The notes under the pieces were generated by a model. The model did no database searches, had not been told where the DNA came from, and saw only the letters and a program-made list of their open reading frames with translations. Shown piece after piece: positions 32,341 through 62,623 of a stretch of DNA of 64,000 bases. Numbering within the stretch: position 1 is the stretch's first letter; every line of letters starts with the position of its first letter. Source of the stretch: Mariannaea sp. PMI_226 (Eukaryota > Ascomycota > Sordariomycetes > Hypocreales > Nectriaceae); NCBI GenBank assembly GCA_024336345.1, contig JANFOG010000020.1, forward strand, positions 372,001 to 436,000. The letters are read 5' to 3'. The translations under genes and the position numbers were made by a program.

Positions 32341-33284
32341 GACTTGTCGATTCAGGGTAATAGCGCCAAGCGTTTGTATTATATAGGATAGACAATAGAG
32401 AAAAGAAAAAGGAGAAAGGAAAGAGAAAGAAGATGTTGAGTTATTTGGTCCTTCTTAGGGGCATGTATCTCTTGGCATACTAATACCAGCAGTAGTGCTA
32501 TCACAAAAAGAAAAGTTAGTAAGGTTTATAGCGAATGTAGGATTAACCAGCGTGCACGGATAAAAAGTGTGTAATTTAATGAAATTACATTTAACAAGGA
32601 GCAGCGCACGGATAGAAAGTGTGTATTTTAGTAAATTACAAGCGATCCTTTGTACAGTAGGAGTATAATGGTCTTTTATATATGATTTTTAAATCCTTTA
32701 GTCTATTTATATTATATTCTTTTAGGCATAAATAAGTTCGTTGTTTTTCTAGCTTGGCTTCCTCCATCCTTATTGGTAGGGCCTTAAGATCTTATGTTAT
32801 TTATTAAGTTGTTTTTCTAATTATTAATTATATTATCTTAAAAGGCTTATATTTGGCCAATGTATTAGTTAATTAGTGGGTTGAATTGGTCTAATTATGG
32901 GTATTTAAGGACTATATTGTATTCTTTAAGGTTTATAATATTGAATTCTTTGCTCTATATTTCTCCCTAAATAATAACTTCTAATTAATCAATCTATTGG
33001 TTAATCTATCTGTTTTTATAGGAGAGGGCGTTTCCTTTTATATTAGATATTTTATAAGGATATTCCTTATCCTTCTATGGTAATATTAGGTTATTAACTA
33101 CCTATAGGTTGATGGTATTTATATTTACTCTATTGTTTATTAATATAGTTAATTATTTTTCCTTAATTTATATTTATAATATTATTCTATATTGTGTTTA
33201 AATATTAGATTGTTTTATATTTTTTAGAGCCTTTTGTTAATTATCTTAAGTTTATTCTAGCTATTTTTATTATTCTTTTATAGG
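32341..33284. other. AT-rich, T-biased RIP-like sequence
   Basis: The plus strand is strongly T-rich from about 32690. Stop codons fill all frames. A near-tandem pair (CACGGATARAAAGTGTGTA) lies at 32557-32625. The T bias is the mirror image of the A-rich retrotransposon at 58559-61983, which fits the inversion described in the findings. Confidence 0.6.
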
Positions 33285-33715
33285 TGTCACGTCCTGATCA
33301 GCCTCAGATCACGTGCATACAGCCCCACAAATTTCTCACCAATCAGCAATGGATCACGATTTCAAACCGTGATCCAGGAACCGGATCACGATTTATTTTA
33401 CGATCCAACGCTACGGATCACGATTCCAAACCGTGATCCAAGAACAGGAACCCAACAGAGTTCGTTCAGGTTCGGCACCGAACCTTCGCGAACCCAGGAC
33501 AGTAGCTAGTATATAAACCCCATCTATTCCCTAGATAGCCTACTTAGCTACTCAGCTTTCAATACAACTTGGTTACCACAATCTACTTGTGCATTACCAG
33601 ACGTAACACTCCAAGTGATTCTTCCGCTACTGCTCAGTATAACGCTCCAATCTTTCTGCCAACATAAACCTATTGCGACCTGGTTTATCCCTTGGGAACC
33701 GATCAGACCGTTACA
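33285..33715 (+). mobile_element. Full-length LTR copy A (431 bp, not RIP-mutated)
   Basis: Starts TGTCACGTCCTGATCAG and ends GATCAGACCGTTACA, with a TATATAAA box near the middle and internal GGATCACG/CGTGATCC short inverted repeats. By eye it is identical over all 431 bp to the reverse complement of copy B at 61984-62414. Left flank is ATAGG, right flank GATAG; these do not match each other but match copy B's flanks crosswise. Confidence 0.9.
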
Positions 33716-34076
33716 GATAGGGTTTATATACTAGCTATTGTCTTAGGTTTGCAAAGATTTGGGGCTAAATGTAAGGAGTTATGCCTTATATACTGATGTG
33801 TGGTGCAATTCTCCCACGTTGTGTGAGAATTGGTTGATCTTTTTGGTCTATTGGCGTAGCGGTCACACTACGCCGTCGCGTTACACTAAACCTAAGCGAA
33901 CTTTATTAGGTTTCTATTCTTAGATTATGGTTTAAAATTATAATCTATAGTGTTGGATTATAGAATAAATCGTGATTTAGTTCCTAGATTATGGTTTGGA
34001 ATCGTGATCTATTGCTAATTAGTGAGAAATTTGTGGGGCCGTATGTATGTAATCTAAGGCTAATTAGGATGTGATA
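33716..34076 (-). mobile_element. RIP-mutated LTR fragment (5' half), interrupted
   Basis: Minus-strand match to the 5' 240 bp of the LTR family with many G-to-A and C-to-T changes. It starts exactly at LTR position 240 (GATAGGGTTTATATAC) and runs to the LTR start at GTGATA (34076). A 116-bp element with a CTAAA duplication is inserted at 33770-33885. Its missing 3' half lies at 62415-62623. Confidence 0.75.
33770..33885. mobile_element. 116-bp TG...CA insertion with 5-bp target duplication
   Basis: Begins TGTAAGGAG and ends GCGTTACA, flanked on both sides by CTAAA (33765-33769 and 33886-33890). The ends are weak inverted repeats (TGTAAgG/TGTAAcG), and a hairpin CAATTCTC...GAGAATTG lies near its centre. 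It reads as a solo LTR of a short element or a small non-autonomous transposon inserted into an older RIP-mutated LTR; the insert itself lacks RIP-like decay. Confidence 0.72.
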
Positions 34077-34668
34077 TTTATTTCTATTTAATATATAAAC
34101 CACAATTATTATTATTAAATAGCTTACTTAATTATTTAGCTTTTAATATTATATTTTAGTTATTATAAACCCTTATATATTACTAAATATAATACTATAC
34201 CCTCTATATATTTACTTGTAATATTATCTTTAATACTCTCTACTAATATAAACTAATTACAACCGATTTATCCCTTGGGAATAAGTTAGATTGTTATAAT
34301 TATATTATTAGAAAGATATTATATTTTCATAATTAAGGAGAGGGCTTTTATAATAAGCTGCCTAATTTCTATTATAGAGATTGGCCTAATATTATTATTA
34401 CTAATATAGAGAAATGCCTACTTTAGATATACTTTAAATTAAGTAGTATATTTATAATATCCATTGGCCTAGGTCACGTTTTGAGGCCAGAGGGTCGCCA
34501 TACTAGCTTCTATATATAGGGCTTATATAGCAAAGGTTCATAGGTATCCAATTGACTCCTTGATGGATGTATTGGCTTGGTTTTGGGGCTTTAATTTCAA
34601 AAATTTCGATCTTGCTGCTTGGGAAGTTTTTTTTTATTCGGCACTGATTGTAAATTCAGGACCACTTC
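34077..34668. repeat. RIP-mutated LTR 3' half and AT-rich filler
   Basis: From about 34090 to 34297 the plus strand matches the 3' half of the same LTR family (TATATAAACC, then CTTACTTAATTATTTAGC, ending at TTTATCCCTTGGGAATAAG) with heavy transition decay. The rest to 34668 is AT-rich with no gene. Confidence 0.55.
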
Positions 34669-34996
34669 TGTCACGTCTTGATCACTCTGAGATCACGTGC
34701 AGGAACTGTCCCACAATTTTCCACCAACCAGTAGAACCCCAACTGATGGCTCACTCCTACGATCGTGAGCCCCTCACACAGTAGCTAGTATATAAACCAC
34801 AGTCATTACCATTAGATAGTCTACTTAGCTACTCAGCTTTCAATACAACTTGGTTACTACAATCTACTTGTGCATTACCAGACGTAACACTCCAAGTGAT
34901 TCTTCCGCTATTGCTCAGTATAACACCCCGATCGTACTGCCAACATAAACCTATTGCGACCTGGTTTATCCCTTAGGAATCGATCAGAACGTTACA
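34669..34996 (+). mobile_element. LTR copy C, internally deleted (328 bp)
   Basis: Starts TGTCACGTCTTGATCAC and ends GATCAGAACGTTACA. Relative to copies A and B it lacks about 100 bp in the GGATCACG repeat section and carries scattered substitutions, without strong RIP bias. Flanks ACTTC and CAAGG do not match, so it is not a simple insertion in its current context. Confidence 0.75.
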
Positions 34997-35701
34997 CAAG
35001 GCCCTATAAGCGATCCTACCCATAGAGGATACATAGTTTGTTGGGACGAAAACCCACGCCCAAAAACTACCCGCTTGCGCAAGTTTCGTGATAAGGGAAA
35101 ACGTCGTGTAAAACAGTCGCGACGGGCGGATCAGAACAGCCACACCATAAGTCTGAAAAGGGAAGGAAATCAGCCAGTTAAATTATATGGAAGTGAAGAG
35201 AACCATTTGATCAATTGGAAATATATAACACAAATCAAATAAAAAGTCAAAACTTCAGGGCCCAAACAAGATATATTACGTAGTAAGATGATGCCTTGTC
35301 CGCCCTGTTTCGCGAATATTTTATAAGGCCTACGACTAAATATGCAAGCCAATCAAAGCGCGGCAAGCAAGTGAGAAATATATTAGGTAATTTAAGCAAC
35401 ATATGCCAAAGAACTGAATTTTGTCCCCAACGCAATAGCCTGCTGTAGGGCCTTCCTATAGCTGTAAAATCAAGACCTTCTATGCCTTAAAGTTGCCCCT
35501 ACCCTATGTAACAGGATAGTTACAGTAATATTGCCCGTACCAACATTATAAGCAACTGCTACCATTCTTACAGGAGTTTGATCAATATTGGGAAAAGGAC
35601 CCTTTATTCGTGTTTATGTTGTTTCGTAAGAATATTATCTCCAATCAGCGACCACAGCTGTTGGTACGGCATATTGGCACAAATGCTCACCACTTGCCCA
35701 A
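34997..35701. repeat. Intergenic with one copy of a ~100-bp dispersed repeat
   Basis: About 35435-35514 holds GCCTGCTGTAGGGCC ... AAATCAAGACCTTCTATG ... AAGTTGCCCCTACCCTATG, which recurs in the same orientation near 54796-54870 and 57855-57928. The rest has no supported gene. Confidence 0.55.
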
Positions 35702-36405
35702 CTACAAAGCAAGTAATCCACCCATAATCAAAGCAACGCCACTTCCACCAATCATAGGGTTTAAATGTCCAGCGGCATTAGAAATGGTGCTCGCAGCAGA
35801 CGATGTCTTGGAGGTGGAATCTGTTCCAGTGCTAGAGGCATCCGGGGAAGCCTTTGTGCCTGTCGTCTCACTGCTGAAGCCATCGCTCACAGAGCCACCG
35901 AATACGGACTTTGGTTCTTCAGATGAGCCAGTCTTTGCCGCGGCCGCCTTGTACTCATCGACTGTGTGGTCGCCGCCCGTGTTGATAACACCAACCGCAC
36001 CAGCCTGACAATGGCCTGGAAGGGAGCAATACAAGAAGATAGGTTGAGTGTTGTTGATGGTAATAGAGAAGGTTGTCTAGATAAAGATTGTAATTTAGAT
36101 ATTGAGGAGGTGATGGGAAATTGAAAGGATATAGGGAAATTAATACTAACCTTATCACCAGATGGGAGGGTGCCAGAGTAAAATCCTCCTGCAGTAACAG
36201 GAGTACAAGCTTTCTCAAAATCACCAGCCACAACGCTGTGCTGGCTATTAAAATGAAACTCAACCACGTCTCCTTGGTTTGCCTTGATGGATTCGGGATC
36301 GAAGATGGTCTTAGACCCTGACTTGCCGACCTCAACCTTAATAATCTCGGCAGATGCTCCTACGGCAAGGCCGAACACAGCCAAGGTGCCGACGCTGAGT
36401 TGCAT
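35702..36405 (-). CDS. Secreted GPI-type cupredoxin (Ser-rich extracellular protein)
   Basis: Exons 36405-36151 and 36076-35702, with a 74-nt intron (GTTAGT..TCTAG), give 209 residues. The protein starts with a signal peptide (MQLSVGTLAVFGLAVGASA). Its cupredoxin domain reads IFDPESIKANQGDVVEFHFN, SQHSVVAGDFEKACTP and FLYCSLPGHCQAGAVGVIN. Likely type-1 copper ligands are the His of QHSV and the Cys and His of YCSLPGH. A Ser/Thr/Lys-rich linker and a hydrophobic end (GGSGVALIMGGLLAL) after small residues suggest GPI anchoring, so it would sit on the outer membrane face or cell wall. Many fungi have several such proteins, related to plant phytocyanins; the physiological role is not established. 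It is inside the inverted 28-kb segment and looks intact. Confidence 0.85.
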
Positions 36406-37344
36406 GATTGATGGAGAAAACTGTGTTGTAAATTGAGGAAGAATAGAGAAAGGTTGATAAGGGCGCAGCCAATACTGTTGTCTAGGCAAATAGACTGGTA
36501 GCTCCTGCTTTATATACATCCTACTACGTACCTTGGGATGTAGACAAAAGCCCTTTAGGAGTGCATCGGAAACTTGTGCACCAGTGACGCCGTGCGATCA
36601 CAAATCGCCAACAAATTCTGCTTAGCCATTTTGGTGACTCCTAGAGAAATGAAAGAAAGCAGGCAAGCTTCTCGTATGTTAGTACCTTTAGTTGCAGGTA
36701 AGGTAAGTAGGCTATGGCATTAGTAGTGATAACTGTCAGCGACACGGAAGTCCCAACCATGCTCAGCCACAAACCCCTTTGCGTACAACAAGCAGCCAAA
36801 CCGCTAATGCTGCCCGAAGACCACTTCCTGACGTCACATTCCTTGTTGGTAAGATGTGCTGTAAACGCCGGAAAGTAAAATAGCAGGCTTTTATTAGTAA
36901 GGTTATCAAACATCCCGTCGGCGCAACTAAACTGCCTTGCCCTCTATGTCGGTACTTCGGATAGTCTTGTCAGCAATGCCTTGATTGGTTGACGACTGAA
37001 TTTACACAACTGTCACTCCTTGGCCTCTACAGATTAAACTGCTTAGGAATTATACTCAAATAAGCCGCCATTTTACCCGAAGTGGTCTACTATTGCGTCA
37101 ATCTTTCCAATTTCGTACAAATGGGCTAAGCTGTAATTGTAATTGTACTATTGGAAATAGGAATCTGGTAACCAATCCAGGCCTTGTTCAGTACATACAA
37201 GATCATATATTCGTGGGTTATGTGTAAATGGGGAGCACATCGAGCCTTGAGGGTCTTGATCTATGGTGGTATCCCGAGATGTGGAGCCCGCCTTGCCGAC
37301 ATACGGGCTTAACCACGACGTTCCGGGTCAGAGACCCTCAAGTG
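36406..37344. other. Upstream region of cupredoxin gene, no other gene
   Basis: Short unmatched frames only, the longest on the minus strand at 36641-36913 with no motif. Nothing further supported. Confidence 0.4.
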
Positions 37345-37600
37345 TACAGTGGGTCCGAAAAAGTTTTGGATGGTCACTAGGTATGATATTCACACCTAGG
37401 ATTTTATAATAGCTATTATATACTTAAAACTCAAACAATGCAGTTCAAAAACTCCCAAAAGCTAATATAATAGAATATCTATTATCTGAGTACCTTTTTA
37501 TTCTAAAGTTGTATTAAAATATTGAAAAAAATGCAAGTACGTACTAAGGAGCTCTTTTAGGTACCAGGAGACGTGGTGGAACTTTTTCGGAGCCACTGTA
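37345..37600. mobile_element. Tc1/mariner-type MITE (252 bp) with TA duplication
   Basis: Terminal inverted repeats CAGTGGGTCCGAAAAAGTT (from 37347) and its reverse complement with one mismatch (AACTTTTTCGGAGCCACTG, to 37598) are flanked on both sides by TA (37345-37346 and 37599-37600). The 200-bp core is AT-rich without coding capacity. This is the layout of a non-autonomous Tc1/mariner (pogo/Fot-like) element. Confidence 0.82.
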
Positions 37601-38645
37601 GCAGGTGGGGCGCTATCCCTTTTACTGTCGTAAGGCAACACCTGGGCTACAAGCGCCACATAGCCCCCGCTTTAGCTGAGTAACATAGAGTAACTTTGAG
37701 AGTAACCCCGCAATTTCTCATATAATTTATTCTCTTGACTTTAATGGATTCCCAGGTACGAAAGGCTACAGCGACTAAAAATAGGGGCAGACCACAAATG
37801 TCGTGATATGGCTGTAAGCATTATAAAGTATTTCTTTATGTATCTAGAAATTGTTAGGACTTCTGGCATCATTAAATTAGGTGGTAAACAATGTACCTTT
37901 GATTTACTGTACTTTGGTTGGCTGGAACCCCTGCTCGTGACCCAGGTGTAGCCTTAGTCAAAGGGCTATTAGCGTTGGATCCAAACCGTAGAGTTGTTGG
38001 AAGAGGGATAGTTGTGAGTGAGAAGGGGGATGCGCCGGTGTGTTTATTGTCCGGCCTATCCATAATATGCGGGCAGATTACTCATCGTTGCGATGACGGG
38101 CTCCTTAAAGACATCTTGTCTATCAGTTACCAACATTGAACTAGATAGAATATTATAGTGGCAAGCTAGTAAAAGGGATCTTGAGGGAAAAAGGAGGAGG
38201 ACACTGCTCTAACACTCACAAGGAAGCCAGGCGGTCAGATAACATAGATGTAATAAGACGACCTAAGTCCATAAATGTGAAGCTAATAAACGAGGATGCA
38301 TTTTGGCTGCTTGGCTTGCAAACAGGCATAGGAACCTCCGCAACACTACTCTATTTTCTCAGAGGTCTTTTGTCAACTATATTTTGGTTGATAATTTGTC
38401 ATCAAGTTAATTGGGGCACAAGATGGATAAGGATGAGAAATCAGGCTCGTGCATTGTTTGTGTTCCCTATTTTCAGGTTATCCTTCATCTGCGAAAGTAG
38501 ATATGGATAGTAGCTCTTATTATATGACCCTCTCCATCTCCCTCGTATGCCTCTTCGTTGATTGATTCCGTTCATCCGCAAATTGTAACGCCGCCTTAGG
38601 CTTCGATCACTACCCAACCCGAGGCAGAAAAATTACACAGAAAAT
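37601..38645. other. Intergenic upstream of DOMON-b561 gene
   Basis: No motif-bearing frame is seen. A 109-codon plus-strand frame at 38181-38510 has no recognisable feature. Confidence 0.4.
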
Positions 38646-39985
38646 ATGAAATTTAGCACGTTAGTGGCTACCGTGGCATGTAAGACATCCATATCAGCCC
38701 TCAAGTGCCCTACACTGTTCCTCGTTTTGAATGCCTTTTCACAGCTTGTTGCTTATACAATTAACCTAATAGATGCTTATGGTACCTTCGCTACCACCTC
38801 TTCATACTGTCCCACAGATGGCGTTTGCTACCGCTGGGGTGTTCCAGAAGCTGCGGCCAATTCGACGTCTGGCGATGTATACTTCCAGATAAGGGCTCCC
38901 ACGAAGTATCAGTGGGCCGCTGTTGGCATTGGTTCCGGCATGATTGGTGCGCGGATCTTTGTCGTATATGAGGATGGTCGCGGCAATGTCACGTTGAGTC
39001 CCAGGCGGGCAATGAATCACGTCGAGCCTGAATTCTCGGCAGACGATAGGGTTACCCTTATTGATGGTTCTGGAGTAAAGAATGGCCAGATGATTGCCAA
39101 CATCAGGTGCAGCGACTGCTCCTCGCTGGACCTCAAGGGCAAAAACTCATGGATCGCTGCCTGGAAGAAGGGCGGCCCTCTGAACTCGACAAGCCAGTTG
39201 GAGCACATCACGCAGCATGATAACACTGAGGTCTTTGAAGTCGATTTCTCGTCTGCATCATTCAGTAGCAACAGCAACCCTTTTACCAGCGGATCAAATA
39301 GCAACAATGACGTAAACTCGGATTCTAATCAAGACTCCAGCAATAAAGATGGGTCCGAATCTGGACATAATGATGGTATTATATCATCAAATGGAGGCAA
39401 TAACATGAGTACTCTTGCATGTGCCCATGGCATTATTATGTCTATTGTCTTTGTTGTTGCCTATCCCGTTGGGGCTATTCTTATGCCCATTATTGGCAAC
39501 TGGCTCGTTCATGCTAGCTGGCAATTTCTTGCTTTCCTAGGCATGTGGACTGGCTTTGGTGTCGGTTATGTATTGGCCCATGATAATGGATATGTAAGTT
39601 TTCCTACACGCTCTTATAGTCGTCTGGTATGTCCACTAATATGCTTTGCAAGTTCTGGAATAATACTCATACTAAGATTGGTATTATGGTTGTTGCGCTT
39701 ATGGGTATGCAGCCTATTTTCGGGTGGGCGCACCACCAGTACTTTCTAAAGCATCGACAACGGGGCCTCATTAGCTATGTCCACATCTGGTATGGCCGTA
39801 CTCTTATTATTCTTGGTATTATTAATGGTGGACTCGGCCTGCAACTTGCCAATGCGAGAGAAGGTCTTGTTATTGCGTATTCCGTCGTTGCTGGTATTGT
39901 TGCTCTTACGTATCTAAGTCCTATCCTATTTGGTGCTAGACGAAAAAAGAACCAGTCTAAGCAACCAGCTTCTGAAATAGAGTAG
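38646..39985 (+). CDS. DOMON plus cytochrome b561 membrane protein
   Basis: Exon 38646-39593 and exon 39653-39985 (59-nt intron, GTAAGT..GCAAG) give 426 residues. After a hydrophobic start comes a DOMON/cellobiose-dehydrogenase-like cytochrome domain (YCPTDGVCYRWGVPEAAANS, YFQIRAPTKYQWAAVGIGSG, HITQHDNTEVFEVDF), a Ser/Asn/Asp linker, then a b561 module: LACAHGIIMSIVFVVAYPVG, SWQFLAFLGMWTGFGVGYV, TKIGIMVVALMGMQP, HHQYFLKHRQRG and SYVHIWYGRTLIILGIINGG. The four helix histidines expected to hold two b haems are visible (AHG, HAS, HTK or HHQ, HIW). Such proteins pass electrons across a membrane between ascorbate-like donors and ferric or other acceptors. An extra in-frame intron (38680-38772, GTAAGA..AATAG, 93 nt) is likely: removing it gives a normal signal peptide and 395 residues. 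Confidence 0.85.
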
Positions 39986-40066
39986 GAGTAACTATCTATT
40001 CTGCTATAATTTATCTGCACAAAAGCACCCATTGCCGGATTTCCAGTGTCTACCTCTTTCTTTGAT

Positions 40067-40800
40067 TCAATGGTAGAAATACTTTTTGGACTTCCTCAAA
40101 ATCTGCTCCAACGATACTAGATGGATCACTCCTTCACTAAGCTTCAAGTCACGGATGGCAGCCAAGTGGGAAGTAATATCGCCGGGATCCAACTTCTGGT
40201 TCGCTTGAATAGAAAGGTTCTGCTTTCGGCATCGCAGCGCAACCTGCGTCCAGAATCCCACAAGCTTCTCGCTCAGCTCCAAGTCCCATGTGCTGCACCA
40301 GCTGATTGTGTTGGTATTCGCAGCGGCCTTATACTGAAGTAATGGTAGCCAGTGTTAGCGAGGTTATTATGGTCTGCTTTATATTTTTGGCTTAAATAGC
40401 TCGAATATTTGCCCATTCTTACATAGGAAACTTCTCAAACATTAAGATTAAGCTTTTAGGAATAGGCGGATTTTATTAGATGATAATTCGCAATCATTAT
40501 CGCAATTATAACCATCGTCGTCACCATCGTCATTATCAACATTATCATCAACAATAGTTTGAAATTAGCTAATTAGGCCATAATTGCGATTTAGGATACC
40601 ACTTTAAGGGAGTCTAGATAGAGTAATCAATAGGTACCTTGGACTGGTGAAACTAAGATCTTTTTTAACTGATTGCAGGAGGTCAATGGTGCAAGCCGCA
40701 CTCTGCGTCTTACCTTTCACTCCCACACTACCGGCGCACAACGAGTCGCGCTCACGGAGCTCAGGAGTAACTAGCTCGAGACTCTCGCCAAGCAACGTCT
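40067..40800 (-). pseudogene. Unassigned gene fragment, two exon-like blocks
   Basis: A minus-strand block at about 40336-40067 follows an acceptor-like TTCAG and reads TNTISWCSTWDLELSEKLVG, FWTQVALRCRKQNLS and IRDLKLSEGVIHLVSLEQIL, ending at a stop. A second block, 40795-40604, reads SLELVTPELRERDSLCAGS and ACTIDLLQSVKKDLSF. Composition and lack of stops look coding, but I do not recognise the family and cannot join the blocks into one frame. AT-rich microsatellite-like sequence (40490-40560) separates them. Confidence 0.3.
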
Positions 40801-42689
40801 GATCAAATCCTTAGACTGGTGCCACAAAGCCCGGCTACCTCCTCATTCCGCTGGACTGCTTCGGCCTCAAGAACTGCGTACGTTCACAGTGCGCGAACAT
40901 CATTTCTAAGCTTGGGTTTGATGTCTTCCTCAAGGATGACCCAACAGTAAGAAGAGTCTGAAGTACCATCCTCATTGGCGATCAAACGGTAATTTAGTTG
41001 ACAAGAGGGCTATAAACTAGCTCATTTTGTAGAAGACTACTCGACGGATCCATTCCATCCCCTCTATGTTGGATTATGGGGCCAGTGATATTTATTGGTA
41101 GCAGCTAAATGTGTGGCTTTCTTCAAATACGACGTACCTACGGTACGAAATGCCAAGGCAAGGTCTAAAGTCTGCAGGGCGGGCTAAGTGGGAGTGGAGG
41201 TAACTTCGGAGACATAAGGCGGAAAAGGGGTAAAATTATGCCGTCCCCGAGGGTGGGGGGCGGGGGTTCTTTGGAACATAAGGTGATGTAGACATGCATG
41301 TCAGAATGGCGGTGTAACATTATACACGGATTACGGCATGTGGAAAAGGAATGATCGACAGAAAACCCGGGGTCAGCTCGGCAGATAGTTGGCAAATGCC
41401 ACCAGTGGGGTATACGGAAAGCAAAGAAGACTCAGGTTGCTTTGGCAAGGTACTACATGTATGAATGAGGACATTACATTTAATTTTAGAGTCTAAGTGC
41501 AAGACAAATAAAACTAGTGAGGATAGGAGCTAAACGAAACAGTACACAAGGTAAGGAGGTATTGTATGTAATTGTATTCTAGATGGGGTATGCTAATGAA
41601 TGAGGCGAGGTCCTCCGGAATCCAGCCAAGACTGCGAAGTGTTATGGTTGTGCTAGACTATTATAGCATAGGGCGAAGATTGGTTAATAATCTATATTGC
41701 AGTAATTATCCAAGCACACAACTATTATATGCCTAGACACAAAGGGCGTAGTGTTAATCTAACAGTGGCTTGAATAAAAGGGCCGTAAAAAAGCCGTGGG
41801 TTGCTGGCGATTTGGCATATACAGAAACGTACGGCCAATTGGATAACTAATCAGGAGGCACTGATCGACATGTCAGGTATAAAGTACAGTCAACCAATAC
41901 TGCCGCTGCAAGCCAACAGAAGAGAATAATACACTAAAGATCATGAGAAATTTGAATTGGCAATTTTGGGTATAACAGCATAGAGGACGAGTCTATTAAA
42001 GTTATACCAATTCTGACTCAGAAATGGCTCCAGCATTTACATCTATGAGTAATTAGACTCCAGACTACAGACTGCATATTACTAGGAAGTTCACTTCTGG
42101 TGTGATACCTTAGAACACACTTAACTACAGCGTAGATGCTACATATACTCTAAATTATTACAGAGTTGATTGTTCTTTTGTACAGGATATATATATTACC
42201 CACATCACCTCCATAGAGGGAAAGGGTTTACCCTACGTGGAGTCTATCTATTAGGAAGAGCAGGGGTTTCAGGTCCCAGCATAGATTGCTACGTTACTAG
42301 TGAGGGTATTGTGGGAAGAAAAATTTATCCCTTAGCAACTTGTAACTCACAACAGTATTAATACCCGCATTGAGTCATGCATAGAGCTATATATAGCGAG
42401 ATGCAACCAATATACACCTTAATCATGTCATTGTTTATTTATTTGACTGATGGATATGTACATTCTTAAGAATGACTGGCCACGATAACTTTAACTAACA
42501 CTTTTGTACTTTCCCCCCATCTGAGGCCCTTCCGCCGCCGCCTCCCAATCTCCAGATGATAGAGAGGGTGCTTTGATATCACCAATTTCTTCCTCGCCTT
42601 TTCTCATCTCCTTTCTTTCTATTATTGCCTTAACAAACCGCATTGCTCATCCACTACCTCTACACTTTCTGCTCTATATATCTTTCGCG
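40801..42689. other. Intergenic with an old TRIM-type LTR at 41640
   Basis: Apart from the LTR-like copy listed separately, no gene or motif is seen. The last 120 bp before 42690 is CT-rich, typical of a fungal promoter near its start codon. Confidence 0.45.
41640..41754 (+). repeat. Diverged solo copy of the TRIM LTR
   Basis: TGTTATGGTTGTGCTAGAC, then AAGATTGGTTAATAATC, AATTATCCAAGCACACAAC and ACTATTATA line up in order with the 120-bp terminal repeats at 52839 and 53174. Differences are mainly C/T transitions plus small gaps, so it is an older copy. Confidence 0.65.
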
Positions 42690-47060: not shown

Positions 47061-47079
47061 TGATCAAGTTATACTAAAC

Positions 47080-50701: not shown

Positions 50702-52838
50702 AATTTGGTGAGGAAAGACCATTAACTCAATAGTCAAGAGAATCGTAATATGTGGCTAGTTGAATGAGAGAATTGCGACGCCCCCCCCCCAAAGAAGCTA
50801 TTTGCAACTTTACAAATAATATGTATATATAAAGGAAGAAAGAGTAGTCATTAGAATAGTAGTAGGAAAAGGGGGAAGGAGCAAAAGTAAGGAAAACTAG
50901 ATGAATAATACCACTGCTCCGGTAATTACCATTATTGTCCTACAGGCTCCGCAGTCCAGGTAAGGCTGGTAACTTGCAAGCCACATACACCAAAGAAGGC
51001 ATTTGCAATTTCATTAAGAATATAAAACGGGAGGAAAGAGGGTAAGGAAAAAGTAAAAAAGAAAACGAACACCAAGGGTACTGCTAATAATAATTAATAG
51101 ACAGGGGGGAGGGAAAGTAAAGCAAGTAGAGCTAGATAAAATGGATGGATGATGCTACTACTTCTTCTTTTGGGATTTAATAGTCCAAGTATACATACTC
51201 ATTCATTCATATTCCCATCATCATCGTCGTCACCATCACCATCTCATTATTAATAATAACAATAATAATATGTCTTCTGCCGTGGAAGTAGAAACTTCCC
51301 AAGTCAATTAAATAATAGGGTAATATAAGCCGCTGCAGCTTCTCATATGCAGGTAGCAGCGCTGTCCTCAAAACAAATCAAATTCGGAGTTATATTTAAG
51401 ATATTTGGCAACCCTTAACGCTGGATTGTTAATTGAAATATTTATTTAAATATTTCAAATCTTACCCTCTATACTCTCCATACTACTATGTCCAATCTCC
51501 CGCTAGACCTCATCTCCCCCACTTACAATTGCCCCCAACTTCACCACACCATATCTAATCCAATTCTTTAGGCATTATAACTTCTCCAATATTTCTATTA
51601 TTATCAAAAGCCACTATAATATTAGCATTAACTTAGCAAGGCTAAACGACCTCTCACAATCAATTGCCATCGCCAATATCGCGAGTATATCAAGAGCTAA
51701 CTAACTAACCATTAGAAATTATCCCTAGTAAATCATCCACCACTTTATTAAATCCTCAATCTCTTATAGCTCTAGCCGCAAATATCACTTAAGCTCACTT
51801 CCCATTACTATAGTCTTTATTATCCTACTCTTCACCCATTGCTTAAACATACTATCTACCGGCATTCTCTACAATACACTTAAGGATGCTATAATCTTAA
51901 CAATTGCCCCTCGCTGCTCGTCTACCGGCCGGTTATAGCAAGACCAGCGGTCTAGGTAGCCAGGTAGTCAGATAGTCCAATTTTGACATCCCTTACCCAC
52001 ATAAGCTATTCTTCCAACGCCCAATTCACCTCCAGATAGCTCATACTTAATAATAAATAGAAAATAATAAATATAACAAATAATAATAATTCTCTAAGCT
52101 TAATATTATATTTATTGAGTTTCTACCAGGCAGTAATAATAAAGAGTTTTAAATAATATTAATAATTTTCTCCTATATTATTAATTCTTAATAATCCTAA
52201 TAATTTACCTAATCTATTATTATATTATCCCAAGCCATAACCTAATAAGGAGCTTTATATTAACTTTCGCAAATATATATCTATCTTGCAATCCCTTAAT
52301 CTAGTAGGAAGCTGCCAATTTCGGTCTGGTTGCCTTCAGGCTAGCTTAATCTACGAGTTAATATTCTCTCTAGCTGCCTCATCTAGAACAATATAATAGA
52401 ATAGCTTCCGATCCTTAAGGTATTCTAATAAGTATTCCATACCTATTATCACCTTCCAGAGTTATTTATTATCTCCCTCACTACCCCAATCCTACATTCT
52501 TATAATTTGTAAATAGAATAGCTTAAAAATATATGTAATCTCTACCAAAAGTCTTTAATTATCCCCCTTTAATATATTGGCCTTAAATAGCTATTTCTCC
52601 ACCTCTAGATAGATTAAGAATGCCCTAATATCTCCCTACTTGACAAGCGCTCAAAAAATCATAAAATAAGTAGAGTTCTATCTTATATTATTATTTATAA
52701 TAACCTCTAACTCTACTATTAACTCACTCACTAGAAGATATTCTTATATTTTATTATTTTTATATAAAATCCTCTTAAAGAGCTTATACCTTTAAGGGAA
52801 AAATTTAATAAACTTAATAACATTGTGGAGCTTCCCAC
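50702..52838. other. Gene-free, increasingly AT-rich
   Basis: A run of C lies at 50782-50791; purine-rich and CAT/TAA microsatellites occur around 50820-51290. From about 51430 the sequence is AT-rich with stops in all frames, typical of RIP-mutated repeats too decayed to name. Confidence 0.5.
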
Positions 52839-53293
52839 TGTCACGGTTGTGCTAGACCGTTGCACCAAAGGGCAAAAGATTGGTTAATAATCGCTATGTG
52901 AGCAATTATGCAAGCACGCAACTACTATTATAAGCCCACGGTGAACCAAGCCGTGACACGATGCTCCCCTCCACAAGGCTTGCCCTCAAGCCTTTGGAAT
53001 CCGGGCCGGAAGGTTACGTTTATCCGGTGTTCGTAGCTGCCAACCCCCAAGGTTACCCCGCATTGCCCAAGTGCGCGAGAAAACTAGGCAACCCTGTGAG
53101 CAGTCCGGAACGGGCTTCTAAGGGAACCAACCATAGAATCGAACCTAAGACTACCCGCTTATAGCGATTATTGTGTCACGGTTGTGCTAGACCGTTGCAC
53201 CAAAGGGCAAAAGATTGGTTAATAATCGCTATGTGAGCAATTATGCAAGCACGCAACTACTATTATAAGCCCACGGTGAACCAAGCCGTGACA
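52839..53293 (+). mobile_element. TRIM-like element with identical 120-bp LTRs
   Basis: Terminal repeats 52839-52958 and 53174-53293 read identical; each starts TGTCACGGTTGTGC and ends AAGCCGTGACA. The element is flanked by a perfect CCCAC duplication (52834-52838 and 53294-53298). The 215-bp inside is GC-rich and not RIP-mutated, and no reverse transcriptase or integrase can fit, so it is a terminal-repeat retrotransposon in miniature. It lies in AT-rich, RIP-like sequence, so it inserted after that decay. An older solo relative lies at 41640. Confidence 0.85.
52961..53164 (+). CDS. 67-codon frame filling the TRIM interior
   Basis: An ATG two bases after the left LTR opens a 67-residue frame to a TAG nine bases before the right LTR. 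It reads MLPSTRLALKPLESGPEGYV, YPVFVAANPQGYPALPKCAR and ends in a basic tail. No family is recognised. It might be a relic of a parent element's gag start or simply chance in GC-rich DNA. Confidence 0.3.
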   Translation: MLPSTRLALKPLESGPEGYVYPVFVAANPQGYPALPKCARKLGNPVSSPERASKGTNHRIEPKTTRL

Positions 53294-54774
53294 CCCACCA
53301 GCCCTTTCTTTCTCTAGTATCATAGGTCATCCTCACGACAGCCAAAAAAATCAAAGACCTACAATTCAGCCTCAAAAGCCTTAAAATCTTCACCATAAAG
53401 GAAAGCATAAACAACAAAATTCAAAATATATCCATAGTAGCACATACATCTAGCCCAAACATCCACCAAACCCATCTTTATATCAAGATCTCTATAGAAG
53501 TTCAAAAGACAATTATTATTCAAAAATATATTATCTAAGATTACTATTCTAACTCAATCCTCTATCTTCCATTTACATATAACTTACCTAAGCATCACCA
53601 CAAGATTTTCCCCACTATAATATCCAAACTGGCAACAGAATGTAAATAGGCACAACTAATGCTTGCCCTAACGGTTAAAAAAATAAGCTATAACTATTAT
53701 AACAGCATGCCAATTAGGTAATATCTACAGATTAAACCCTAAATAGATTCTAATAAGGGCATCTAAGAGCTCCTTCTTAACCTTATCCTTCTTAAACTCA
53801 TATATATCATCTAGCAAATAGCCCATCAATTGCCAGCTCTATAATATCTAATCAAATAGATAAGGGTCAAATTATTAAATAAATTGCTAAAAGAATATAT
53901 CACTAAAAAAAGAAAAAGGAACATTAATATTAATCAAAAATCCTAAGCTCATAATATTAGATTATTATATTTACAAAGGTAGTTAACTGCCGAAATCGTC
54001 ATAATAGCAGCAAAAAACTCAGGCTAACTCTTCGCATTATATAAACAACAAGCCCAATAAGGACTCAACGGACTATCATTAGTATCAATTTCAATAAGAA
54101 AAAATCCATAGTGCTTAATCTAATTCTTCCGGCACTTCAAGCCTTTCTGGGATAAAAACTCTTCCAAAATATATCGTTTATGCCTCCATATTGCTCGCAG
54201 AAGATCTACAACGGTAGGGTGATCTAATGAAGCCACCCACATCATCAGCTCGAATTAACTTGCCAGATTTCTCGGTGGGCGGAGAAGAGCAAAGGCAGAA
54301 GGAGGGTAAAGAAGGAAGCATGATGTTATTGGATTCCATTGGGTTAGGCGTCAATCGGTAAGGAATGGCACACATCGAGGAGAAGTAAACAGACTAACAC
54401 CAATGCAGTCTGATGTTATGGGGGCGAGGGATGTGAAAGTCAAGAAGCTACCTTCTCTTTAGCCAGCTTGAAGGCCCTACTAGGGGTAGCACACTAATCA
54501 AAGGTCTGAGTATTGACTCTGATTGGCCAGATCCGCTCACCAGAGCCTAACATCCACCAGGTTCCGGGTAAGCTGCACAGACACGCTCGACAGCCTAGCA
54601 GATTCGACCATTAATCATATATCATATATCAAATATATCAAATGCTATTTCAAATTCAGGGTTTTGGATTTGTTTGATTTGAAATAAGCTTTAGGCATAT
54701 TTGATTGATTTGTTTGGCAGTTTGTTTGATTGCATTTCATCTGTGGGCAGCGCTGCAAGCCCCTAGAGACAGCC

Positions 54775-54870
54775 CCATCCATAGAAGATAAATAGCCTTC
54801 TGTAGGACCTTTCCTATAGCTAGAAATCAAGACCTTTCTACGCCTTGAAGTTGCCCCTCTCCTATGTGAC
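54775..54870 (+). repeat. Dispersed ~100-bp repeat, copy 2
   Basis: Contains CCCCATCCATAGAAGATA, then TAGAAATCAAGACC and TTGAAGTTGCCC. It aligns in order with 35435-35514 and with 57828-57928. Same orientation in all three; family unknown. Confidence 0.7.
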
Positions 54871-55240
54871 ATATACCCGGGTAGTTGACTAGGCTAAAGG
54901 CACAGGAAGCTTACGAGGCTCCGATGCCCTTAGTGTTTAGAAGAGGCAGTTTGAGGAGGCAACTAGGCACATTTACCTTTTTCCTCCGCCCGCCGCTTGA
55001 AAGTTTAAAAGAAAGAATCCAATGAAATCAGTAGGACGCAAGCGAAGTCGAGCCAATGTTGGGACGCACGTGTAATCATGTGAATACCAGCAAACGAACG
55101 CACCAATCAGGTGGACAAGCCCCAAGAGTGTGCGGGAGATGCCATTTGGGAACAAAGTGGAGAAAGGCACTCAAGACCTGGATAGGCTTCATATAAAGTT
55201 TCTATCAATCGATTACAATACGGTCAATGTCCAGTCTTTG

Positions 55241-55270
55241 GGTCCGTGGCGCAATAGTTAGAGGTATATT
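55241..55270 (+). other. tRNA 5'-half-like sequence
   Basis: GGTCCGTGGCGCAATAGTTA resembles a tRNA acceptor stem start followed by an A box (TGGCGCAATxGTTAG). The anticodon arm and B box are not found downstream, so this is at best a truncated tRNA copy or the head of a tRNA-derived SINE. Confidence 0.3.
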
Positions 55271-56234
55271 ATAGCAAAAGTGGCATTAGGTCTTACGCTA
55301 TCGTAAGAAGATGGTAGAAATGAGTATGCTGTTGGATTTCTCGGAAACCATAAGAATATTTCGTTAATTTCACAAAAACCATGATTTGAACCAAGTTAGA
55401 TCCCTCTTCCATAAACTTTCAACTTCGCTTATACAGGCGCCTCCAAGACTGGCACCTCGAGAGAAGCCGCCTCGAGAGGTGCCGACCTTCTCCCCGCCCC
55501 CAACCCCCCCAAACTGGATGCCCCCGAAGTGACACTTCAGAAGCGTCACCTCCTTGAGTGACACTCCAGGTCAAACCTCGAAGGGGGGCCTTCAATTCTG
55601 AGCTACACAATTGCACATGAGGCTGTGGATGCCCCATCCTTGCCGGATTTCGGCCTCTTTATCAGCCCAAGTAATAACCCGGATGATGGGGGGTTTTCAT
55701 TTTGAAAGGATATCGAATAGCGTAAGCGTATTAGATAATGAGCCGTCACCCGATATTCTGGCGCGCGGGGGCTCTTGAACGCACATCCAGACGCCACTTT
55801 CGGGAAGTGCCACATCCTCGGGATGCCATTCGAGCGTTTCGAGTACCACTTGTGGAGATGTGGCTTGCGGATTGTCACTTTTGGGGCTGATGAGCTCTGG
55901 AGCTGTGCAAGGCCACCATTACTGGCGTCAAACCTGGGGTGGTGTTGACAGAATAATGACTAAAAGAGCCTCTCAGTGGTGCTGCGCCAGCAAAAACTCC
56001 GCACAAGCCTAGTTCAGATTTAAGTGAGCCTTTCGGTCGCGTCATAAACCGAGATTGTTTTTCCTTTTACCACATCGATATCATCATGGCGATGCACCCT
56101 CCTACATTTCGTTTGCTCCCAAAAGTTTGATACAAATTTCCGTTTATTCTCCTTTGCCAAATTGATTTATTAAAGACAGCTACCATGACAATGTTCGAGG
56201 GTCGTGTAAGACCACCGAAAGACTTGCGATCACG

Positions 56235-57678
56235 ATGGGCAATTCCCTATTCCACTATTGCTCCCTGACAGGCCCTGTTTCTCACCAGAGAACTTTCTCA
56301 TCATCAACAGCGGGAGTGTTTCCTCCACCCAGCGGGGTTACACCAGATTTCCATTCAAGGACGTCTTGCCAAAGTATTGAAATCATGGCTTGGTCAATAA
56401 CATTCGGCGCGGCAACTATTTTCTTTTTCCTACGGTCATTTACAGTAATTCATCTCCTACACCGTTTCGTTATCGACGATGGTTAGTAGGATTCTGCGGC
56501 CTCGAAGGGGGAACATGCTGACCCTTCCTCCAGTCTTGTTCACTCTTGCCTATCTTTGTGCTTTGGTTTGCTTTGTTCTAGCACTTTTAGGTATGAATAC
56601 TCATTTCAATCCTTCCGTCTCTGATATCAATAAGTTGCTAGATATGAGAGCAGGAGGAAAGCATATATGGGATGTTTCCGAAGAACAGTTCCATTTTCAT
56701 AGCTCGGTATGCCTTTGCCCTTATGAAATATTTGAGCAAACTGAGGAATAAACTAACACGAATGTCCTAGATCTCGCTCCCACTATCTATTTTATACCTA
56801 TGTGTAACGGGATTTACAAAACTCTCTTTACTCGCTCTCTACCACCGCTTATTCCCTAACAAGTTGTTCCGATATTGTATATATGGGGTTGCAGTCATGG
56901 TGGGCATGTTTGACATTGTCTCCGCAACACTGCTTATTATTTTCAGGCTTGCCAAAATAGGTACCAGTGTCGATACATTACATCTTTCAATGGCATATAA
57001 TGTCAATAATATCGTCACAGATATCATATTGATTGCCCTGCCATTACCGAAGATACTTAAGCTCAAGCTTCCCTTACGACAGAGATTTACTCTTTATGGT
57101 ATTCTGCTTATCGCATCAGGGTATATATTTTCCGTCCCATACACTTCACCTTGCACCTCCCCGAACTATATCCCTGGGTATCTTTACTAACGGCTACTGC
57201 CACCGTCTTCAGAGCTCTCACCGCATCAGTTCTGCGCCTTGCCCGTGTAGTCATGATCCAGTCCATCCTAGATGATCCAGACCAGAGTTGGATTCAATCA
57301 ACAAGCTTCTTGATGTCGGTCATCGAGATGAATTTGGGCATTATATGCAACAGCGTAGTACTCTTAAGACCTTTCGCCGCTCGGTACCTCCCGTGGCTTA
57401 TTGGCATCCATGCAGTAAAGGAGAAAAGAGAAAACAAGAATAATGAAGGGAATGGACGAAGACTGGGAACCCACAATTGGTGGTCCCGGCAAAATAACTC
57501 AGCCTTACATCCAGAAATATCGTCTATCCCACTAGATGGCTTAATTACACCGCAAAGCATGAGCGAGACAATGGCAGATACAGGGGTAGATGGAAATATG
57601 GCGACCGAGTTAGAAAGAGGCCAAAGAGCAAAGTCTAACCCTTATGTAAATGTCAAATATGGCCAGCCCGTGCTCTGA
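56235..57678 (+). CDS. Fungal rhodopsin-domain integral membrane protein
   Basis: Exons 56235-56481, 56534-56706, 56771-57120 and 57213-57678 join in phase to 411 residues (donors GTTAGT, GTATGC, GTATAT; acceptors CCAG, CTAG, TCAG; branch CTAAC in two introns). Features follow the fungal rhodopsin-domain family (Pth11-related receptors without CFEM): PPPSGVTPDFHSRT before helix 1, HRFVIDDV, ALLGMNTHFNPSVSDINKLL, HIWDVSEEQFHFHSS, FTKLSLLALYHRLFPNKLFR, NIVTDIILIALPLPKILKLK, RLARVVMIQSILDDPDQSW and MSVIEMNLGIICNSVVLLRP. The loop that normally carries a QCxP cysteine is shortened. The cytoplasmic tail is polar. Seven-helix plasma-membrane protein; ligand unknown. Intact, and isolated among repeats. 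Confidence 0.82.
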
Positions 57679-58137
57679 CTACGGACCAAAGAAAAACATA
57701 GCCAGCCTGAGCGGTGATAAGGATTGCCGGCACGGTTAGCTACAGCAGTGAGGGCACCACCAAACATTGTGATACGACTTATAACAACTATATCAGGAAG
57801 ACAATATCGGGGCTCGAGCCCCTATGGATAACCCCATCCCTAATGGATAGATAGCTTGCCGTAGGATCCTCTATCGCTAGAAATCAAGACCTTCTATTCG
57901 TTGAAGTTGCCCGTATCCTACGTAGCAGTAAAATCGCTGCTTGCAAAGTCTCCGCCACCCCTTACCGACTTCCTTTTAAGGGCGTTTCAGGTATAACCCT
58001 GCTGCTTTTTGACAACTCTAGAAGTGTTGCGTGGAGCTGATTTTCCTAGTGGAAGTCACTTATCGTCACACCCATATTCTTCTCCCTATGTTTCGTGACA
58101 ATTAATCGCACTAATCGCATTATTCTGTTGGCTTACA
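57679..58137. repeat. Intergenic with dispersed repeat copy 3 (about 57828-57928)
   Basis: Contains CCCCATCCCTAATGGATAG, TAGAAATCAAGACCTTCTA and TTGAAGTTGCCC, matching the other two copies. The remainder holds no gene. Confidence 0.6.
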
Positions 58138-58558
58138 TATCACGTCCTGATCTGCCTTAGATCACGTGCAAAACATGCCCCACAAATTTCCAGCCAATGG
58201 GCATAAGTTCGCTCGAGTTCACACATAAACCATCGCGAACCTCACAAAGTTCGTCAGGATTCGACCTCAAACCGCTGCAAACCACCAATAGAGTTCACTT
58301 AGGTTTGGCATCAAACCTTCGCGAACCCCAACACATAGCTAATATATAAACCACAATCATTACCATTAGATAGCCTAATTATTTAGCTTTTAATATAATT
58401 TAATTATCACAATCTATTTGTACATTACTAGACATAATACCCAATAATATGCCTATTAATGCCTATATTAACCATACTTAAAGTCTCCCTAATACTCTTT
58501 GCTAATATAAACCTATTGCAATCTGGTTTATCCCTTGGGAATTGATTAGATTATTATA
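58138..58558 (+). mobile_element. RIP-mutated 5' LTR
   Basis: Full-length plus-strand LTR of the same family as copies A-C, starting TATCACGTCCTGATC (TG changed to TA) and ending GATTAGATTATTATA. The 3' half is heavily C-to-T/G-to-A mutated while the first 200 bp are better preserved. It is followed by TATTAAAAGCTCTTATT, also found after the LTR half ending at 62623. Confidence 0.8.
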
Positions 58559-61500
58559 TATTAAAAGCTCTTATTCAAAAGTATTACTATTATTTTAAAT
58601 ATATTAAAATGCTCCTATTTAGATAAATATATATTATTTACTAAATAATACCAAATTATTAAAATAGCCTTTATTACCCTATCTAGCTTTATTAATAATA
58701 AGAAAATTATTATTATTAAGAAGGATAGCAATATTATAAATACCAATAATAAAGATAAAATAAAAAAGATTATCCCTTTTTTTTATAAAGAAGAAATCTT
58801 AAAGCTTAATATAAAAAATAATATATTAAAAAAACAAATTAATATATTCAAAATATAAATAAATAACCTTATTAATATAAGCTAAAGTAATAAAGTAAAT
58901 TTAAATAAATAAATTAACCAACTCCTTATATAATTATAAAATATTAATATTAAAATCAATATTATTAGGGAAAAAATAATTAAAAATACCATAATAATTA
59001 TAAATAATATCAACACTATTATTTCCAATACTAAATGAGGAAAAGATCCAAAAGAGGTACTTAAACCCAATTTGCCTTCTATATATAATAAAAATGCAAC
59101 AAACCTTTAAAAATTCCTTACCTAACTTAAAGCCTATTATATATACTTCCTATCTTAATTTATTATAAATAAAGATAAAATCTAATATATAATAATATTT
59201 TTTAAAAATAAAGTATTATAATGGTTTAAACCTATTATAAGCAATTATATTAATAATAAACCAGAAAAATATAACCAAAGCACTAAAAATATTTATAATT
59301 ATTATAATATTTTTAAATTCGAACTTAAGGGAGCATTTAGAAATTAAAAAAAAACAAGTAATAGAAATGCTATTAATAAACTTAGGTAATAAGGATCTGC
59401 CTTAATATACATTATGGAACTTAGAAACCTAATGTCTTAACTCAATTGGGGAGAAGAAGCCTTTATAATAGTTTATTATAAAGGACTAAAAGACACCATT
59501 AAAGACACCATAATAAAAAGAAGCAAACCTACTACCTTTAGCAAACAATACAACTAGCCATCAAGATTAACAACTAATAATTCAAAAAACACATTAAAAA
59601 AAAAAAAAATAATAAAAGCTTATAAAAGCCCAGATAGTATAAAAACTACCAATATTCTTTAAACCAAAAAAAAAAAAAAATACACAAACCTCTTATAAAA
59701 TAGATTCAAGACCAATAGAACTTAATACTACTTAAAAACAAAATATAACCAAAGTTAAATACTTTAATTATAATTAATTAAATATATAGCCCAAGACTAT
59801 AAAAAACCCAAAAAGGAGAAACCCTTTAGATAAATTTTAGAAAATAAGAAAAACCTAAATATACTAATAAATAAGAAAATATCCAAATCGCCAAACAGAC
59901 TATTACAACCCTCATTATATAATTAGCCAAACAAATAGACCCATATAACAAACTAGATAAATATAAAGACAAGATCGAAAAAGGAACAATTGACCAATAG
60001 ATAGTAGGAATATTTATTAAAAAAGTTATATGCAAAATCATAATAAAATGAATTTATAAGACCAATAAATACAAAATAACTAAAGTATAATAATCCTAAA
60101 TATAATAAAAAAACTACAAAGTGAAGAATATTAAAATACTCCAATCCCCCAATTAAACTTAAAATACCCCAACTACTTAAGAAATTACTTAAAATATACA
60201 CTCTTCAAATCAAATATTTTAATTAAAGAAGCTATTAACCTAAAAAAAGCCATAAAAGGAGAATATAATTATCTCTATTAGATATTTAGCTATTATAATA
60301 ATAAAACTATAATACCTATTAAAGTACTACCATACCATTACCCCATTAAAGAAGAAAACAATAAATACCCAAAATACTTCCTAAGTAATATTAATTATTA
60401 TAAAAAGTATAATAAATACCTTACTATTCCAAAACCTATTAAACAACTTTATATTTAAGAAAGAAGAATAGCCTAAAAAATCCTATATTAATTAAAAAAA
60501 AAGGAAATAGTAAGTATAAAAAATACCTACAATAAAACACTAAAACACATAGCAATATAAATAATATACTAAATCTATAAAAAAAAAGGAATAGACTATA
60601 AATTATGTTTATTAAAAGCCATAATAAAAGAATGAACCTTTAAGAACCCCTAATAGGATAGAAACCAATACTAAAAAACTATAAATTAGTCCACCTCACC
60701 AAAAACAGCAAAACCCTAGCCATAGCACACTCTAGATACAATATAGAAAGAATACCACCAAAAACAATATACCTATCTAATAGCAATCTTTACAAAAACA
60801 AAACCAAAGCAATTACCACAAAACACCAAATGGAAATATAAATATAAATACAAAAGTATAATAATAGAATGATTAGCATATAAAATATAATATTAAGGCC
60901 TTATACCCTAATCATAAACAAACCCCAATAAACACTGGTTCTATTACTAAAGAAATACCAAAACCTAGGAAATAACACCAAAAAAATAGCAATAATACAC
61001 AAAGAAAAAGACATATACTAAACACCAACCTCAATAATGCTAACAACATCCTCATAACAAAGATTAAGAAACACAACATTATATACCAAAGACTTTAATA
61101 AATACCTTATCTTATATAAAAAGAAGTAACATAAGCTCACTACTTAAGATTGCCAATCTAACAAAACATCTACTCAGAGGACTTTATAGGCAAAGGACCC
61201 TTATAATAATCTAAATAGGACAAACAAACCATTACCATTATAGAAAGATATAATACTTTTAGTATAATTAATATAAAATAAGATATATATTTAGGAAAAG
61301 AAGATATAATTTGGGAAATTATATTTAAATTACCTAAAGTTAAGAAAAAAAAAGCATCTAACTAAAAAAACCTAATAATAATAAAGAACAGATCGCAAGA
61401 GAACTAGCCACAACCTAACTAAATTTAGGACCAGAAGGACAATATAACAAAATCTATATTTATACCATCCCACACCACAAGATAGCAAAAGATAATAAAA

Positions 61501-61983
61501 CTCCTAAATAAAGAAAGAATAATAATAGAAAAATAAAAATAAATAATAATAAATATATTACTATCTTATAAACATTATATATTTACTATAAATACACTAT
61601 ATACATAAAGAAGAAAATACTTAATAATATATTCCCAATCTAAATCCCCAAAGACATAATCTATAAAAACCCATATCTCTATTAAAAATTATAAAACTAC
61701 AAAATAAATAAATAATATTATAATATCAATATAATCTGGCTTAAATAACCAGAATATACATTCCCAAAAAAATGCAAAAATAATACCAGCCCAGCAGACT
61801 GCCTATATAGAAAATGCCAGTACTATCTAAAAGCAAAGATTGCAGCATAATATGCCGGAAGAGACCATAAAGTACAAAAACTTACAGAAGGAAGGTTTTA
61901 AAAAGCCATTATACAAGCAGCTATATTAATCAAAAAAATCCAAGCCCTCAAAAAGAAATTAAAAAACAAAAATCGCCCCCTAT
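58559..61983 (+). mobile_element. RIP-mutated LTR retrotransposon interior
   Basis: A-rich plus strand with stops in every frame. Around 59755-59810 a decayed gag zinc knuckle can be read: the expected C-x2-C-x4-H-x4-C cysteines and histidine appear as tyrosine codons (KYFNYN...YIAQDYKKP), exactly what C-to-T and G-to-A mutation produces, plus one single-base gap. The position, 1.2 kb after the 5' LTR, suits gag. At 3.4 kb it is too short for a full gag-pol; the missing end probably continues at 33284 and leftward on the minus strand. Confidence 0.65.
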
Positions 61984-62414
61984 TGTAACGGTCTGATCGG
62001 TTCCCAAGGGATAAACCAGGTCGCAATAGGTTTATGTTGGCAGAAAGATTGGAGCGTTATACTGAGCAGTAGCGGAAGAATCACTTGGAGTGTTACGTCT
62101 GGTAATGCACAAGTAGATTGTGGTAACCAAGTTGTATTGAAAGCTGAGTAGCTAAGTAGGCTATCTAGGGAATAGATGGGGTTTATATACTAGCTACTGT
62201 CCTGGGTTCGCGAAGGTTCGGTGCCGAACCTGAACGAACTCTGTTGGGTTCCTGTTCTTGGATCACGGTTTGGAATCGTGATCCGTAGCGTTGGATCGTA
62301 AAATAAATCGTGATCCGGTTCCTGGATCACGGTTTGAAATCGTGATCCATTGCTGATTGGTGAGAAATTTGTGGGGCTGTATGCACGTGATCTGAGGCTG
62401 ATCAGGACGTGACA
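61984..62414 (-). mobile_element. Full-length LTR copy B (431 bp, not RIP-mutated)
   Basis: Reverse-complement twin of copy A at 33285-33715, same length and no mismatch found by eye. Flanks are CCTAT (61979-61983) and CTATC (62415-62419). These are the reverse complements of copy A's left (ATAGG) and right (GATAG) flanks. Confidence 0.9.
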
Positions 62415-62623
62415 CTATCTATTCCTCTAGATAGTCTATCTAGCTATTTAGCTTTTAATATAACTTAATTACCACAATCTATTTATACATTACTAAATAT
62501 AACACCTAATAACACACCTGTTAATACCCTACCTAACCATATTTAAAGTCTCCCTAATACGCTCTACTAATATAAACCTATTGTAATCTAGTTTATCCCT
62601 TAGGAATTAATTAGACTATTATA
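62415..62623 (+). mobile_element. RIP-mutated LTR fragment (3' half)
   Basis: Starts CTATCTATTCCTCTAGATAG, which is LTR position 236-240 onward, and ends TTAGACTATTATA. It overlaps the 5' half at 33716-34076 by exactly five bases (CTATC), so the two are halves of one LTR. Confidence 0.78.

Follow-up and report, generated by a model that had tools for sequence, protein, structure and literature searches.

A probable 28,268-bp inversion between two opposed solo LTRs in Mariannaea sp. PMI_226

A 28,268-bp segment (33716..61983) of the DNA of Mariannaea sp. PMI_226 (Nectriaceae, Hypocreales) is bounded by two identical, opposed LTRs, and its ends fit their proper neighbours only when the segment is reversed. 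Judged from the sequence, this arrangement was very probably produced by an inversion through ectopic homologous recombination between two LTR insertions in opposite orientation. All coordinates refer to the window, the whole stretch of 64,000 nucleotides that was analysed (assembly GCA_024336345.1, contig JANFOG010000020.1, positions 372,001 to 436,000 of the forward strand). Inversion by LTR–LTR recombination had been proposed in a first-pass annotation of the same DNA and is supported here by paralogous copies, which show the restored order, mostly with a single 5-bp target.

The two LTRs and their target duplications

LTR A (33285..33715, + strand) and LTR B (61984..62414, − strand) are separated by 28,268 bp. 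Each is a 431-bp solo LTR with TGTCAC...GTTACA ends and without RIP mutation. A is the exact reverse complement of B at 431 of 431 bases, as the first-pass annotation had stated; homologous copies are thus present at both breakpoints in opposite orientation. The GC content of A is 0.464, compared with 0.22–0.25 in the surrounding old element. Both were classed as solo LTRs from their TG...CA ends and from 5-bp target duplications that are perfect after reversal. The retrotransposon interior is absent at A and at B, target sequence lying on both sides of each LTR once the order is restored.

A and B are by far each other's closest relatives among the matches listed, the nearest other copy of A being located on C10 (89% identical in the genome search, 96% over aligned bases). 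Their closeness may stem from a recent shared origin, from gene conversion or from the two together. The absence of differences (0/431) sets the divergence at 0.7% at most (95% level), a figure that is no clock because of gene conversion and escape from RIP. Full identity had been taken earlier as a sign of a recent event or of gene conversion; great youth need not follow, the solo-type LTRs of this family carrying few RIP-type changes. Neither a crossover point nor chimerism is visible in A or B because the two LTRs are identical.

At present, the flanks are ATAGG/GATAG for A and CCTAT/CTATC for B. When the segment was reversed in silico, they became ATAGG/ATAGG and CTATC/CTATC, respectively. 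This comparison bore out the earlier report that the flanks are mismatched now and form perfect 5-bp duplications on reversal. In LTR orientation, the flanks are (ATAGG, GATAG) for A and (GATAG, ATAGG) for B, a reciprocal exchange of target duplications that is observed directly in the present sequence. The duplication assigned to insertion A consists of an outer half, ATAGG (33280..33284, + strand), and a displaced half, ATAGG on the − strand (61979..61983, CCTAT on the + strand); a single ATAGG occurs at this point in eight of the 11 further host-element copies. That assigned to insertion B consists of a displaced half, CTATC on the − strand (33716..33720, GATAG on the + strand), and an outer half, CTATC (62415..62419, + strand). 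Chance agreement of 5-mers, estimated by random draws from the AT-rich flanking blocks, is about 1/240 per pair and about 3/100,000 for both pairs. Coincidence was rejected on this figure, which matters little given that the restored joins are present in other copies.

For comparison, 28 other LTR loci were fetched, a partial survey since at least 54 matches exist in the genome, some of them only pieces. Sorting by flanking motifs gave nine solo-type and 14 element-type LTRs, five with uncertain ends being left out of the counts. A perfect 5-bp duplication was found in six of the nine solo-type LTRs, and in three LTR pairs lying on one contig the outer flanks agree over 5 bp; 5 bp is the usual length of the target duplication in the family. 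One LTR sorted as element-type (L047) also has matching 5-bp flanks. One-sided flank matches occupied 19 rows, two from A and B, three from the same-contig pairs, each regarded as the two ends of one element, and 14 from others, the last mostly reflecting interior motifs common to all element LTRs. A and B form the sole reciprocal flank exchange among the 30 LTRs compared; no further exchange of this kind was found among the 28 other loci (five with uncertain ends).

The median number of C-to-T plus G-to-A changes relative to A was 81 in element-type and 15 in solo-type LTRs, a contrast that is a description rather than an independent test because the sorting was made after the flanks had been seen. 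In Podospora, the available part of the crapaud account reports that solo LTRs largely escape RIP while the LTRs of full copies are RIP-mutated, and explains the contrast by how short solo LTRs are (PMC10787394).

Three further arrangements of the family were recorded. A full-length pair is formed by the LTRs at C8:813557 and C8:821683, which span about 8.5 kb end to end and have matching outer GGAAG flanks. L036 (C24:2454229) and L042 (C24:2469976) are two LTRs of like orientation, separated by 15.7 kb and bearing CTTCC as both outer flanks; their spacing is about twice that of the C8 pair, and they may delimit a single element that carries a nested insertion. Within the window, 34669–34996 is an LTR relative that matches positions 1–62 and 215–431 of A and not the middle, and other places in the genome match likewise.

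Restored joins in paralogous copies

The old RIP-mutated element apparently hit by insertion A is represented on either side of the segment. A distal remnant (32659..33284, − strand; GC 0.230) aligns to two RIP-degraded copies, L062 and L061. The left flank of A, 32661–33284, aligns to L062 from 5013 to 4390, and 32659–33289, with five more bases, aligns to L061 from 4722 to 4093. The proximal part (58140..61983, + strand) comprises a 5′ LTR at about 58140–58558, placed by LTR matches, and an interior aligned from about 59650; this B-side interior alignment ends at L062 4394 and L061 4102. The proximal and distal parts overlap by 5 bp on L062. Since both parts map onto L061 and L062, they would be one old element cut by insertion A and then split by the flip.

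Genome searches with the 500 bp left of A and with the reversed 600 bp inside B gave 21 and 16 matches, respectively, each including self. Both queries adjoin on one strand at 11 sites outside the window, arranged as sequences that had once been contiguous would be, and the match ends overlap by exactly 5 bp at seven of these sites. The other nine non-self matches of the left-of-A query end at or before base 463 of 500, and the other four of the reversed B-inner query begin at or after base 308 of 600, all short of the junction.

A 300-bp restored-join query (150 bases per side with one ATAGG) was then aligned to the 11 fetched copies. It crossed the join in 11/11, with the alignment coming within seven bases of both query ends, and the present-order query stopped at base 148–152 of 300 in all 11. 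A single ATAGG occupies the insertion site in eight copies; ATAAA, ACAGA and ATATG are found in the other three and are probably due to RIP and decay. The fetched loci are interiors of the host element and hold one of the two neighbours only, so that any unrelated neighbour would fail there just as the present join does; because the test loci lack the second present neighbour, the weight of the evidence lies in the success of the restored join. AT skew is −0.295 left of A, −0.356 in the restored right neighbour and −0.136 in the present right neighbour. The earlier argument from strand bias holds in that the restored neighbours share a T bias, but a smaller T bias is also seen in the present neighbour.

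The target of insertion B appears to have been an older LTR of this family, itself RIP-mutated. LTR matches place its left half at 33716..34076 (− strand); its right half extends from 62415 to about 62626 (+ strand), as located by LTR matches and by the restored-join test. After restoration the two halves meet at CTATC. The restored join was crossed in all 29 LTR loci tested, the alignments reaching 18–58 bases left of the join. The present join was crossed in none (0/29), alignments beginning at query base 144–171, at most seven bases left of the join; most of these loci are LTRs without the present left neighbour, and the failure of the present join there carries little weight. In the genome-wide searches, the older-LTR halves overlap by 5 bp at C8:813791–813795 and at C15:15158–15162. 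The restored order is thus directly observed at both junctions in paralogous copies.

The two halves of one RIP-mutated LTR described in the first-pass annotation are real, with the amendment that the first also holds a 123-bp repeat. The same annotation had counted three independent joins as repaired by a single reversal; two joins are mended by one flip, and both match paralogous copies. The 123-bp repeat (33766–33888) contains a GGCGTAGCGGTCACACTACGCC hairpin, recognized by eye, and is inserted in the older LTR. Counting this copy, the genome has it at 21 places, and three of the others are 97–98% identical.

Genes in the segment and other features of the window

Three loci within the segment have Pfam matches above the cut-off. 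A CDH-cyt gene locus (38589..39985, + strand) matches PF16010 (E = 8.1e-25) and is followed by a cytochrome b561-like stretch that matches PF03188 at E = 0.0048 and 17.6 bits, below the Pfam cut-off of 23. An AP-1-like bZIP transcription factor locus (43122..44024, + strand) matches PF08601 (E = 1.8e-21) and PF00170 (E = 2.5e-11), and its ORF is 99% identical to BGZ63DRAFT_429661 (424 aa) of Mariannaea sp. PMI_226. The upstream ORF 42525–43094 may be the first exon of the bZIP gene; it gave no match of its own in the Pfam scan. A fungal rhodopsin-domain membrane protein locus (56771..57678, + strand) consists of two overlapping ORFs matching PF20684 (E = 2.5e-18 and 3.2e-07).

The fourth of the 'at least four intact genes' counted previously is a candidate cupredoxin-like gene near 35702–36597, recognized by eye only; the Pfam scan of its ORF 35887–36597 gave no match, and neither did that of six ORFs between 44992 and 50701. 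No gene appears to be broken, since dead transposon DNA surrounds both breakpoints. An AT-rich stretch of the segment holds two 121-bp direct copies (52839–52959 and 53174–53294), 100% identical and 335 bp apart from start to start.

Outside the segment, two overlapping ORFs on the − strand (23902–25972) match DUF3435, the domain of Starship captain recombinases. A DUF4238 protein is encoded near this gene by a single ORF of 510 aa (27136–28668, + strand). A 12-bp minisatellite (16562–16785) lies within a stretch of long ORFs on both strands.

Origin of the present order and known systems

In the mechanism that we propose, two insertions of one LTR-retrotransposon family would have occurred in opposite orientation 28 kb apart, insertion A into the interior of an old, RIP-mutated member of that family and insertion B into an old RIP-mutated LTR. 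Intrachromosomal homologous recombination between the inverted repeats would have flipped the 28,268 bp, swapping one half of each duplication. LTR–LTR recombination would have cut each insertion down to a solo LTR, before or after the crossover. We infer the crossover as the process and the order of these steps. One-ended or alternative integration was rejected by reasoning, both LTR ends being complete and each target being duplicated in full.

As a variant of this mechanism, full-length inverted elements may have been the partners in the crossover, each recombinant being reduced to a solo LTR later. Longer homology recombines more readily and a full-length pair exists on C8, but no interior remains at A or B to give this variant direct support, and we regard it as a tentative option with rather less than an even chance.

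The strain itself may be uninverted, the segment having been flipped by the assembler at the identical 431-bp repeats. A misassembly at A and B would yield exactly the present sequence, swapped duplications included, and the earlier wording that the inversion was 'proved by swapped target duplications' was therefore too strong. We nevertheless consider such an artefact unlikely, and take the DNA of the strain to be probably in the present order: the assembly comprises 42.2 Mb in 25 contigs and the window is without N, which suggests long reads, and these easily span 431 bp. No statement of the sequencing method of strain PMI_226 was found in the literature searched; PMC9258550, as far as its available part goes, uses the strain as a reference and gives an average nucleotide identity of 79.9% for M. 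elegans. PacBio was used for 41 root fungi in PMC8664821, the main text of which is without the word Mariannaea.

Given an inversion by ectopic recombination, the inverted repeats might still be recombining, with the two orientations of the 28-kb segment coexisting in the population or even in a single mycelium; we hold this to be quite unlikely. If they do recombine, repeated exchange would help to keep A and B identical, and if both orientations occur, the gene of the AP-1-like regulator would flip along with the segment. Movement of the 28-kb block as a unit, a composite transposon bounded by inverted LTRs, deserves almost no credence and was rejected: a gene-bearing block between perfect inverted repeats resembles one at first sight, but ATAGG and CTATC on its outer sides are no duplication of one target, and in the paralogous host sequences each outer flank runs on into the reversed opposite inner flank, the restored joins being found elsewhere in the genome.

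Inversion by ectopic recombination between LTRs thus remains the preferred reading, and it would be an event of a known type. Inversions of a defined segment in fungi are also described at mating-type loci, in Sclerotinia sclerotiorum (PMC3574095) and in Hansenula polymorpha (PMC4238957), and both papers contain the term 'inverted repeat'. Those inversions are recurrent or switching, whereas neither recurrence nor a switch is indicated at A and B.

For Galileo in Drosophila, target duplications swapped between the two ends of an inversion have been published as the mark of ectopic recombination (PMC2775673, from the available part, as are the comparisons with Galileo that follow). As in the Galileo inversion 2z3 of Drosophila buzzatii, opposed copies lie at both breakpoints, the target duplications are exchanged and a single target copy is found where the insertion is absent, here in paralogous copies. 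The Galileo duplications are of 7 bp, compared with 5 bp here at 431-bp solo LTRs, and the Galileo copies are chimeric, whereas A and B are identical. Non-inverted chromosomes were examined in the Galileo study; here, the empty sites are known from paralogous copies only. The two insertions, the two exchanged duplications and the two ancestral joins can all be read in one genome, an unusually complete record that is readable because the insertions landed in repeats that have other copies.

The crapaud element of Podospora is likewise an LTR retrotransposon of a fungus with RIP, and its solo LTRs largely escape that process. From disparate LTRs of full copies, either gene conversion or ectopic recombination was inferred there, and the available part of that account describes no inversion of the type found at A and B (PMC10787394). 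The present case suggests that unmutated solo LTRs in fungi with RIP can stay identical substrates for rearrangement.
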